From the NCBI RefSeq assembly GCF_027912835.1, contig NZ_CP115768.1, positions 1 through 64,000 of the forward strand: DNA of 64,000 nt, given 5' to 3'. Source of the DNA: Paracoccus sediminicola (lineage in GTDB: Bacteria; Pseudomonadota; Alphaproteobacteria; Rhodobacterales; Rhodobacteraceae). The notes beneath the pieces are model-generated. The model saw nothing but the letters and a program-made list of their open reading frames with translations, was not told the origin of the DNA and made no database searches. Both the position numbers and the translations under genes were made by a program. Shown here piece by piece: positions 14,763-18,739 of this stretch (position 1 is the first letter of the stretch; every line of letters starts with the position of its first letter).

Positions 14763-15425
14763 TTACATCGCAAGCGCATCGACCTCATCCAGCGTCGCCA
14801 TCGCACCGCCACTGAGCACGAAGGAGACGCCGCGATCGCCCATCTGAATTTCCTGCACCGCGCTATAGCTAGGTACGTCACTGCGAGCGATGACCTCGCC
14901 GCCGCGCATGCTCTCCAGCGAAAAGCGATACAGGCCCTGCGGAAGGCGGTCGCCGCCAGCGTCTCTGCCGAACCATTCGACTGTGCCCGCGCCGGTACCG
15001 ATATCCTCTCGGCTGATCTCACGCCCATATTGGTCCGTTGCGACGAGAATAACCTCGTCCGCCGCAGGATCTGGCTGAATCTCCATGGTAAGAGGCTGCT
15101 CGCCGAAATACACCTCACCCGTGGTCCGCACCTTTTTTCCGATCCAGTCAGAATAGCCTGAAAGAGCGCCTGCACCGCTTTGCCCGGCGATCTTTTCAAG
15201 GAGGTCGTTTGTCTTCACCTGCTGTTCGACCCCGGAGAATGTGGCAAGCTGAACAGCGAAATCCGCGCCCTCCATCGGGTTCATAGGGTCCTGGTTCTTG
15301 ATCTGCGCGGTCAGCATTTTCAGAAAAGTCTCGAAATCACCACCCGCGAAGCTTGCCTTGCTTGGGGGGCTCGCCGTCGGGGGCGGGGCGACGGCAGGTG
15401 CGGCTGTCGGATTGGTGGTCACCAT
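14763..15425 (-). CDS. flgD: Flagellar hook assembly (hook-capping) protein FlgD
   Basis: 220 aa from MVTTNPTAAPAVAPPP at 15425, preceded by AGGAAACTGAAG. FlgD caps the growing hook and lets FlgE subunits assemble. The N-terminal signature FLKMLTAQIKNQDPMNPMEG lies near residues 30-55, followed by FAVQLATFSGVEQQ. The C-terminal part has the Ig-like/tudor module (GTVEWFGRDAGGDRLPQGLYRF). The Pro-rich N-terminus matches alphaproteobacterial homologues. It originally lay 23 nt downstream of the fliK stop; the IS256 insertion in fliK now separates it from the fliK promoter, so its expression may be lowered or depend on the element. Confidence 0.95.
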   Translation of the reverse strand: MVTTNPTAAPAVAPPPTASPPSKASFAGGDFETFLKMLTAQIKNQDPMNPMEGADFAVQLATFSGVEQQVKTNDLLEKIAGQSGAGALSGYSDWIGKKVRTTGEVYFGEQPLTMEIQPDPAADEVILVATDQYGREISREDIGTGAGTVEWFGRDAGGDRLPQGLYRFSLESMRGGEVIARSDVPSYSAVQEIQMGDRGVSFVLSGGAMATLDEVDALAM

Positions 15426-15448
15426 CTTCAGTTTCCTTTCTTGTGCGT

Positions 15449-15594
15449 TCAAAGACGCAATTCCAGGCGCCGCCCCGGCGAAGGCGTGCTTGGCCTGGCG
15501 GCGTCCGTTGGCATCGGGAGGGCGGTTTCCGCTAATATTCTCGCTTCGTCGGGGGCGCCGCGACGCGCTGTTTGAGCATGCTGTTGATGTCCTT
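15449..15594 (-). pseudogene. fliK: Detached 3' end of fliK
   Basis: Beginning at the left copy of the 8-bp target duplication, this stretch reads on the minus strand in the frame of fliK. It encodes 45 residues after the duplicated CAT codon, QQHAQTARRG... to GRRLELRL, then TGA (15449-15451). Joining it to the 5' part at the duplication gives one uninterrupted 627-codon frame. It has no start codon or ribosome site of its own and is not expected to be translated separately. The ending L-x-L-R-L is like the C-terminus of other FliK proteins. Confidence 0.9.
15587..15594. repeat. Left target-site duplication ATGTCCTT
   Basis: Identical to 16994-17001 and directly abuts the inverted repeat of the IS element. 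8-bp duplications are usual for IS256-family elements. Confidence 0.95.
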
Positions 15595-15622
15595 GGTAGT
15601 GCCCCACCGGTTGGTGTAGGAG
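15595..15622 (+). repeat. Left inverted repeat of the IS256-family element
   Basis: Begins GGTAGTGCCCC and pairs with the right end with 23 of 28 identical positions; the first 11 bases are a perfect match. Confidence 0.92.
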
Positions 15623-15739
15623 GCCGCGCGCGGAGCCCCTGGCGTAGCGCAGCGCGCGGCCGGGTGTGACGCTGGCGGCCATCGTCGATCTTCGGGCAGG
15701 TTCGGGTTGCGAGACCTTGAACCAAGAACGGAGATGACG

Positions 15740-16936
15740 ATGACCGACGACAGAATGACGCTGATCGAGCTGGTTGAGAAGCAGGCTGACGGCGACCTCG
15801 TCCGCGAGATGCTGGCCTTCGCGGCCGAGCGGATCATGGAAGCGGAGGTAGAAGAGCGAACCGGCGCCGCGAAGGGCGCACGTTCGCCCCTGCGGGAGGT
15901 TCAGCGGAACGGCTACCGGGACCGGGACTGGGACACCCGTGCCGGGCGGATCGCGCTGGAGATCCCGAAACTGAGAAAAGGGAGCTACCTGCCCAGCTTC
16001 CTGGAGCCGCGCCGCACAGCCGAGAAGGCGCTCGTGGCGGTGATTCAGGAGGCCTACGTCCAAGGTGTTTCCACGCGCTCCGTGGACGATCTGGTGAAGG
16101 CCATGGGCGCGGGCGGCATGTCGAAGAGCCAGGTCAGTCGCCTCTGCGTCGAAATCGACGAGCGGGTGAACGCCTTCCTCTCTCGCCCGCTGGAAGGAGC
16201 CTGGCCGTATCTCTGGCTCGACGCGACCTACGTGAAGGTGCGTGAGGGCGGACGGATCGTCAGCCGCGCTGTGATAATCGCCGTCGCGGTCAACGAGGAC
16301 GGCAAGCGCGAGGTTCTCGGCGTCGCCACCGGTCCTTCCGAAGCAGAAACGTTCTGGACCGACTTCCTGCGCTCTCTCGCAGACCGTGGCCTGCGCGGTG
16401 TGAAGCTGGTCGTAGCCGATGACCACAAGGGGCTGCGGGCTGCTGCGCGGCGAGTGTTCGATGCAACGCACCAGCGCTGTCGCGTTCACTGGATGCGCAA
16501 CGCGCTCGCCCATGCTCCGACCAAGCAGCGCACGGCTGTGGCAGCCATGCTGAAGACGATCTTCGCCCAGGAAAACAAGGCGGATGCCGAAGCCCAATGG
16601 GAGGTCGTCGCGGACGCACTGCGCGAGAAGCAGGCGAGGCTCGGCACCCTCATGGACGTCTCGCGCGACGACGTGCTCGCCTACATGGATTTTCCCCGCG
16701 AGCACTGGGCTCAGATCGCGTCGACAAATCCACTGGAGCGGGTGAACCGGGAGATCAAGCGCAGGTCTGACGTCATCGGCATCTTCCCGAACGACGAGGC
16801 AATCATCCGGCTCGTCGGCGCGCTGATGCTTGAAACCAATGACGAATGGACGGTTGCGCGGAGATATATGTCTCTTGAAAGCCTCGCGCGCGTCACCGAC
16901 AATCCCGACATCAGGCTGTCCGCCGTGGCGACCTGA
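15740..16936 (+). CDS. IS256 family transposase
   Basis: 398 aa from [18 protein letters not shown] at 15740, which has GGAG about 6 nt upstream; ATGs at 15707 and 15734 are alternatives. It is a Mutator-type DDE transposase. [13 protein letters not shown] carries the first Asp, [12 protein letters not shown] the second Asp, and the C-terminal [13 protein letters not shown] the Glu. The CxxH-like [12 protein letters not shown] segment of the family is intact. Length and motifs are complete, so the enzyme is probably active. The stop lies 57 nt inside the right end of the element. Confidence 0.96.
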
Positions 16937-18739
16937 TCAGCTTTGGACCTCTCCGAAGGTCGGCGCTCTTACACCATCCCCCGGGGCACTACCATGTCCT
17001 TCACGAAAGCCGATCAGAGCATCGCCGATGCCCGCTTGAGCAAGTTCAGTCGACAGCATCTCGGCGTTGCGGCGTAGCATTGCCAGCGTCTCTGGTCGGT
17101 CCGCCGCGACCGTGACAGACAGGCCGCTTTCTGTCTGGGAGAATGCAAAATGCACCCTTCCCAATTCTTCTGGCGCGAGCAACAGTTCCGTTTCTCCGGT
17201 CCGGAACGGCGAGAGAGAGATCATTTCGGCAATTTGACGCGTCACCGGCGGTGGCGGCGTGGAGACCGTCGAAGCTGCCGCCGATGGTGACGTCGGCTGG
17301 CGAGGCGGGGAATCATGCCCCACCACCGCCGCCAGCAGATCCTCATCGACCTGATGCTGCAGGTCCGGCCGGCTGCGTCCGGTGATCCAGGGAGCAGTGC
17401 TTGCTTCGCTCTGCTTGGCAGAATTGATTGAGCTCACGGTCGGATTGGATGCAGTTTTCTGTGACACAAGACCCGACGCCAGATACGCGCCACTCTTTTC
17501 CGAGTCAGAGACGATGAAGCGCTCATTTTCACCAGCAATCGCAGTCTTGAATTGTGACGACGAGCCAGTTGACGACGTATGATAATTCGAAAGCCTCTCG
17601 ACATCTGACGCGCCGACGGGCTCCAGGGCACTGTCGTTCGGCCCCCGAAGCTGAGCTGAACGCGACGTCTGCGCGGTGCCATAGGTCGTCCTAACCGTCT
17701 CGGGTTGATCATCCATGACCAAGACGGATCGCAAATCTGCAGTTTGATTTTTGGTGTGAATTGAATCGCTCAGGTTCCTCTGCTGGAACAGCGAAAATTT
17801 ATCGGGGGACTGGTGAACTGTTGCATTCGATGCTGATCGCCAAGCGCCGTCCGCCGTCTCTATCTTGGACCGCGCGTACAGAGCTGCATCTGAAAAAACG
17901 GGGCTGGCTGCGGTTTCGTCTTCTAGGACAGTGGCCTTCGTGATTTGCTGCGGCGGAAAGCCCATCTCGACCCCGGAGTTGCGCATCGCTTCGGTGCTGG
18001 CTAGACCCGGATTGCTGTCAATTGCGATAGCCGATTGAGACAAGATTGGCTGACGAACGTCGACGCTGAGCGGCACGCGCCTTTCGTTCATTGCTGCAGT
18101 ACCGGCAACACTCCGATCAGCATGCAAGCGTTGCCCAGCGGGATCTTGCGCTGCCATTCGCTCGGATACTCTGCCGCTGAGGAGGGCGGCGGGCGTAGCC
18201 AATTTCTCTCTCGGGTATTCCGAGGAGGCATCGGAGACCTGACGCTCTTCCGAGAAAGCGCCGAAGCCGCTGTCTTTTTGCCACAGTAGCGTAACCGATA
18301 TTGGCTTGATTCTTGTGGCGCCCGAACCAATGTCGTTCTGCATCGGCGGCTGATCAGCCGACGCGCGAACAGACGTTTCTTCCGGTCCTTTTTCACTCTC
18401 TTCAGAATGAGCTCCTTTTTCCGGATCTTCCATGTGGCCAGCGGCCACGCGCGGGATTAACCACGGCTGCTCGTCTTCAAAATCCGTAGGTTCCAACCCA
18501 GAGGGTCCCTCAGGCGGGGCATCGCTAGCCTCGTTCCCAGCCTCTTCTAGCCCGGCGGGATAAGCCCCATCCACAGGCGCGACCGTCGCGGCAACTGGGA
18601 AGGTTGATGCAGGGTCGCCAATACTCCATCGGTCGGACATTTCGGCGAAGATAATGCCCTGCCCCAGCCCCATTACGCCAGCCTTCCGCAAGGGTTGCAA
18701 AAGGGCAATCGTCGTAGAGGGGGTGATTCGTATCTCCAT
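16937..18739 (-). CDS. fliK: Flagellar hook-length control protein FliK, 3' end replaced by IS sequence
   Basis: FliK is the secreted ruler that ends hook growth and switches export to filament substrates. Residues 1-582 are native: a long polar, low-complexity ruler region, then the conserved FliK C-terminal export-switch domain (LSPFRTGETELLLAPEELGRVHF and LSVTVAADRPETLAMLRRNAE, about residues 505-570). From residue 583 the frame enters the IS element and adds 18 foreign residues (GSAPGDGVRAPTFGEVQS) before a TGA in the element. The intact gene was 627 codons. The start at 18739 has a poor ribosome site, and MGLGQGII, 22 codons in, is an alternative. FliK is the best match by C-terminal domain, position before flgD and composition. 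Confidence 0.9.
   Translation of the reverse strand: MEIRITPSTTIALLQPLRKAGVMGLGQGIIFAEMSDRWSIGDPASTFPVAATVAPVDGAYPAGLEEAGNEASDAPPEGPSGLEPTDFEDEQPWLIPRVAAGHMEDPEKGAHSEESEKGPEETSVRASADQPPMQNDIGSGATRIKPISVTLLWQKDSGFGAFSEERQVSDASSEYPREKLATPAALLSGRVSERMAAQDPAGQRLHADRSVAGTAAMNERRVPLSVDVRQPILSQSAIAIDSNPGLASTEAMRNSGVEMGFPPQQITKATVLEDETAASPVFSDAALYARSKIETADGAWRSASNATVHQSPDKFSLFQQRNLSDSIHTKNQTADLRSVLVMDDQPETVRTTYGTAQTSRSAQLRGPNDSALEPVGASDVERLSNYHTSSTGSSSQFKTAIAGENERFIVSDSEKSGAYLASGLVSQKTASNPTVSSINSAKQSEASTAPWITGRSRPDLQHQVDEDLLAAVVGHDSPPRQPTSPSAAASTVSTPPPPVTRQIAEMISLSPFRTGETELLLAPEELGRVHFAFSQTESGLSVTVAADRPETLAMLRRNAEMLSTELAQAGIGDALIGFREGHGSAPGDGVRAPTFGEVQS
16966..16993 (-). repeat. Right inverted repeat of the IS256-family element
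   Basis: Read on the minus strand it begins GGTAGTGCCCC and matches the left end at 23 of 28 positions. Confidence 0.92.
16994..17001. repeat. Right target-site duplication ATGTCCTT
   Basis: Second copy of the 8-bp duplication, inside the fliK coding sequence (codons GAA GGA CAT on the minus strand). Confidence 0.95.

Follow-up and report, generated by a model that had tools for sequence, protein, structure and literature searches.

In Salmonella FliK, a core (residues 268-352) is followed by a disordered tail (residues 353-405), as described in PMC6972891. Two stretches are reported to be important for export switching, residues 301-350 and the last five (PMC10965912). The last five residues have been proposed to interact with FlhB, flipping the switch (PMC13344023, 2026), and the core itself was cross-linked to FlhB (PMC10965912, PMC6972891). 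In the alphaproteobacterium Caulobacter, the last five residues of FliK-C, LDIRI, are reported to be required for degradation by Lon, and the motility defect of overexpressed FliK-C is gone once LDIRI is removed (PMC8545394).

Insertion sequences of the IS256 type duplicate 8 or 9 bp of their target according to PMC5065196. In the same report, oppositely oriented IS256 copies bound an inverted segment of the Staphylococcus aureus OC8 chromosome. ISPaes3 of Paracoccus aestuarii (PMC3281130) is an IS256-family element with an 8-bp duplication and imperfect terminal repeats. Here we describe an element of this kind that lies within fliK in the window, i.e., the whole 64,000-nucleotide stretch of Paracoccus sediminicola DNA that was analysed. 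The window opens a 3.18-Mb contig in a genome of 3.53 Mb (7 contigs), and its first genes are dnaA, dnaN, and gyrB. The features of the locus are collected in the table.

Features of the interrupted fliK locus, in positions of the window
Feature	Positions	Strand	Basis
flgD (hook cap)	14763..15425	-	PF03963, PF13860 (frame 14763-15725)
Displaced 3' piece of fliK (native end), 45 codons plus stop, last residues GRRLELRL	15449..15586	-	in frame; relatives
Target-site duplication ATGTCCTT, left copy	15587..15594	.	exact, abuts element
IS256-family insertion sequence, 1399 bp	15595..16993	+	ends, duplications, six identical genomic copies
Left terminal inverted repeat, 23/28 matching	15595..15622	+	end comparison
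Transposase, IS256 family, about 400 aa	15734..16936	+	PF00872, NF033543
18 IS-encoded residues and TGA stop, now ending FliK at 600 aa	16937..16993	-	translation
Right terminal inverted repeat	16966..16993	-	end comparison
Target-site duplication ATGTCCTT, right copy	16994..17001	.	exact, abuts element
fliK native residues 1-582, complete T3S4 core included	16994..18739	-	Flg_hook, model, flank translation

The family of the element is supported by its transposase, which matches Pfam Transposase_mut (PF00872) at 7.1e-126 and 420.5 bits (cut-off 21) and NCBIfam transpos_IS256 (NF033543) at 361.9 bits (cut-off 150). The start codon of the transposase is our choice, and the span scanned was 15740-16936. 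Target-site duplications in the IS256 family measure 8-9 bp. Both copies of ATGTCCTT are exact and abut the two sides of the element. For any one element, an adjoining 8-bp match has a probability of about 1.5e-5 by the simple 4^-8 estimate. The 28-bp inverted repeats lie inside the duplications. The family, the duplications, and the repeats had all been read from the sequence in an earlier note, and each is borne out. The element resembles ISPaes3 in family, genus, duplication size, imperfect repeats, and length (1399 versus 1393 bp), a likeness taken from the description of ISPaes3 rather than from its sequence. ISPaes3 differs in that its host carried two copies and it was captured on a trap plasmid (PMC3281130).

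Six copies of the element, 100% identical over 1399 bp, are present in the genome, which agrees with the view of the earlier note that the insertion is probably recent. From these copies we infer that the element has multiplied in the genome by transposition. Taken singly, four of the six, including the fliK copy, are flanked by exact 8-bp duplications. Another chromosomal copy (C1:2455123-2456521), also flanked by a perfect 8-bp duplication, splits a short-chain dehydrogenase gene that neighbours a thiolase gene, and open frames lie on both sides of it.

The remaining two copies lie on the 29.5-kb contig C4 (C4:21313-27609) in opposite orientation, 3.5 kb apart and with a ParA-like gene between them. 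Their flanks match crosswise, at 8/8 and 7/8 positions. The flanks by themselves suggest that recombination between the copies inverted the 3.5-kb segment. A composite transposon is not favoured, since the crosswise flanks, one of them with a single mismatch, fit two insertions and an inversion. The arrangement is like that in S. aureus OC8, but the OC8 inversion is chromosomal and spans one megabase (PMC5065196), whereas the one proposed here is small and is read from the flanks on C4.

Some match was found in 68 of 125 genomes of the genus, the genome itself counted, with at most three candidates scored per genome. Among the matches listed from other genomes, the best near-full-length identity was 84% and the top fragment identity 93%. 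The closest of 11 plasmid records, for which near records may be missing, is an IS256-family transposase record on a plasmid of another host, Salipiger abyssi (NZ_CP015092.1), with 91.5% identity over the whole 1399 bp.

The assignment of the interrupted gene as fliK is supported by its Flg_hook match (5.2e-13). On the minus strand, the right flank of the element encodes 582 residues and breaks off exactly between two codons; the left flank supplies 45 more residues and a stop. As the earlier note had it, the fliK frame resumes in phase at the left duplication and ends in GRRLELRL at 15449; neither of the alternative frames of that flank yields such an end. Removing the element and one duplication leaves 1884 nt, which is divisible by three and encodes 627 codons and a stop. 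The claim that the element splits fliK holds as far as insertion within the gene is concerned. If taken to mean a plain null, it needs refining: the folded core survives, and what is exchanged is just the C-terminal tail. This fliK is a broken gene, its present frame closing on IS-encoded residues, without the conserved C-terminal pentapeptide, and its native end lying beyond the element.

The fliK frame also continues through the entire antisense strand of the element. Its sole internal stop, codon 601 of 1097, is the TGA at 16937-16939, directly next to the stop of the transposase. Since this is the only stop from the fliK start to the native stop, a read-through frame of 1096 residues exists. 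We attribute this frame to GC-rich antisense coding and to the insertion length of 1407 nt (3 x 469), with no sign of use.

The position of the break relative to the switch core was examined by profile and by model. Within the 600-aa frame, Pfam Flg_hook (PF02120) aligns to residues 514-584 at 49.1 bits, covering positions 12-82 of an 85-position profile, and the last two residues of the match are IS-encoded. An AlphaFold model of FliK residues 481-600, built with an alignment of 26 relatives, has a mean pLDDT of 76.9 and a pTM of 0.59. In the model, the final strand ends at model residue 100 and the native sequence at 102, and residues 107-116 fall below a pLDDT of 50. The only two solved structures found at E <= 0.001 are T3S4 domains, those of PscP (5cuk, 2.2e-4) and FliK (2RRL, 2.7e-4), with moderate TM-scores by query length of 0.56 and 0.45, respectively. 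The best PDB match by sequence is also 2RRL (E 0.0056). By profile and model, the insertion is at a boundary matching the core/tail border of Salmonella FliK, and the predicted switch (T3S4) core is left whole. The disordered tail is swapped for the 18 IS-encoded residues.

Relatives show what the lost tail normally looks like. FliK frames were sought in 46 loci, comprising 19 from same-genus genomes (L008-L026) and 27 of 80 loci fetched by FlgD (L027-L053; 15 of the 27 labelled Paracoccus), the remaining 53 fetched loci being unused. A frame was obtained at 45 loci, the exception being L038. In the FlgD-fetched loci, the frames lie directly upstream of flgD, as in the window. By its FlgD relatives the window falls in Paracoccus, the best of them (locus L027) being 66% identical, though near records may be missing. 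The tail past the core is 33-54 residues long in the 45 relatives versus the 45 displaced residues in the window. The pattern [LIVM][DENYQ][LIVMF]R[LIVM], composed after some tails had been inspected, is found at the end of 44 of the 45 FliK proteins versus 0 of 470 other long frames from the same loci; the one outside it ends in ISIRL. Among the 44 distinct tails, Arg is invariant at -2, an aliphatic residue or Met always occupies -1, -3, and -5, and Asp stands at -4 in 40. The ends are variants of LDIR(L/I/V), and the window end is LELRL, with a Glu at -4 that none of the 44 shares.

A FliK match at E <= 0.001 was found in 23 of 40 relatives of other species, the best by E-value among these 40 having 37% identity over residues 450-580. 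A protein search for a sister strain, with 7993 candidates scored, matched only the protein of the window itself. The insertion is nevertheless well supported without such a strain, because the displaced piece matches the tails of relatives in both length and end motif. LELRL is the counterpart of Caulobacter LDIRI and of the last five residues in Salmonella.

From these observations, a mechanism can be proposed. In it, an IS256-family element transposed into fliK, leaving the last 45 codons of the gene beyond it, and duplicated 8 bp of the target. The resulting FliK, if made, should still fold and be exported without its C-terminal pentapeptide. Hook-to-filament switching should then fail or be poor, giving polyhooks, few or no filaments, and weak motility; this is expected because the pentapeptide is gone and its counterparts matter for switching in Salmonella. 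The truncated FliK should also persist longer, the counterpart of its lost pentapeptide being what Lon requires in Caulobacter. Caulobacter FliK-C without its last five residues is a close parallel, with the same pentapeptide lost (LDIRI versus LELRL) after Flg_hook. It is, however, an engineered construct (PMC8545394), whereas in the window a natural insertion removes 45 residues and adds 18. We put the probability that the insertion gives a folded, longer-lived FliK that switches poorly or not at all at roughly 70%. Counting against it are the Glu at -4 of LELRL and the reliance on other species for the function of the tail.

The rest of the flagellar gene set bears on this reading. The frame of flhB, whose product is the switch partner, is open, with NPTH present. 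Among the flagellar genes scanned, open frames were also found for flagellin, flgD, flaF, flbT, fliP, fliF, motA, flhA, fliR, fliE, fliQ, flgB, flgF, flgG, flgH, flgC, flgA, fliN, flgK, and fliG, as well as for a flgE-like gene, a flgL-like gene, and a fliI-like C-terminal domain. The names flgB, flgC, flgE, flgF, flgG, and flgL were assigned from domain and order. The gene for the P-ring protein, flgI (C1:2579698-2580725, minus strand; L140:7693-8795), matches the FlgI profile in two frames (profile positions 1-129 and 130-343). This apparent frameshift is either a further lesion in the flagellar set, in which case motility may already be lost, or a fault of the assembly. A second FliK that could stand in was sought with PF02120 at E up to 10. 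Five other places in the genome matched, none above 13.9 bits against the cut-off of 29.8; the same search matched in 11 of 14 control genomes, above the cut-off in 4. A further type III export set (C1:337654-344077; L124:12655-19078) encodes SctL-, SctN-, SctQ-, FliP-, FliR-, and FlhB-type proteins. It is separate from the flagellar genes and seems to belong to a type III system of the non-flagellar sort.

The main effect may instead lie outside FliK, with flgD transcription cut or flgI already dead, so that no hook is made and the insertion is simply drifting in cells that no longer swim. The flgD start codon, which is our choice, follows the native fliK stop after 23 nt, and polarity of the element on flgD is possible. 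An outward promoter for flgD was not found, as the minus strand at 15400-17100 gave no match to a sigma-70-type promoter, the only type covered, which makes this a weak negative. flgD could still be read, since a Paracoccus IS256-family element is reported to have activated a downstream gene, probably through a hybrid promoter (PMC3281130). The flgI frameshift could make the fliK lesion irrelevant, but it may be an assembly error, and the other scanned flagellar genes are open. On balance, we consider an effect outside FliK rather unlikely. Still less likely is a truncated FliK that still switches, the T3S4 core being enough and the IS-encoded tail tolerated in a near-neutral insertion. The core is intact by Pfam and model, and the frame remains open and gains just 18 residues. 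Partial activity is possible because the Salmonella core, whose counterpart is intact here, was itself cross-linked to FlhB. Against this reading stand the conservation of the tip across the 44 distinct tails and the reported importance of the last five residues in Salmonella (PMC10965912).

The insertion might also be reversible, precise excision between the 8-bp duplications restoring fliK. Precise excision and phase variation of IS256 in Staphylococcus were reportedly described by Hennig and Ziebuhr in 2008 and by Ziebuhr in 1999. The perfect duplication and the in-frame empty site fit such a switch, but any IS with intact duplications would appear alike, and we hold reversibility to be very doubtful. 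The same low likelihood applies to the extended proposal of a Lon-resistant, non-switching fliK allele, with ruler and core kept and tail swapped, in which insertion and excision of the IS256-family element act as a motility phase switch. It is hardly credible that one of the identical copies was wrongly joined into fliK during assembly. Six identical copies are the type of repeat prone to misassembly, but the fliK site has its own matching duplication, distinct from those of the other sites, both of its flanks belong to one gene, and the dehydrogenase gene is likewise split cleanly by another chromosomal copy.

The preferred reading remains a FliK that keeps its predicted core and would switch poorly or not at all. 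Flagellar genes are familiar targets of IS insertion, and the event in fliK is ordinary in kind but informative in where it falls. Because the insertion falls at the boundary between the folded switch core and the disordered tail, it would be a natural experiment on whether FliK can do without its tail. Across the relatives examined the tip is conserved (44/45 by the end pattern), and the insertion bears on whether this tip acts as both a switch trigger and a Lon degron beyond Salmonella and Caulobacter.
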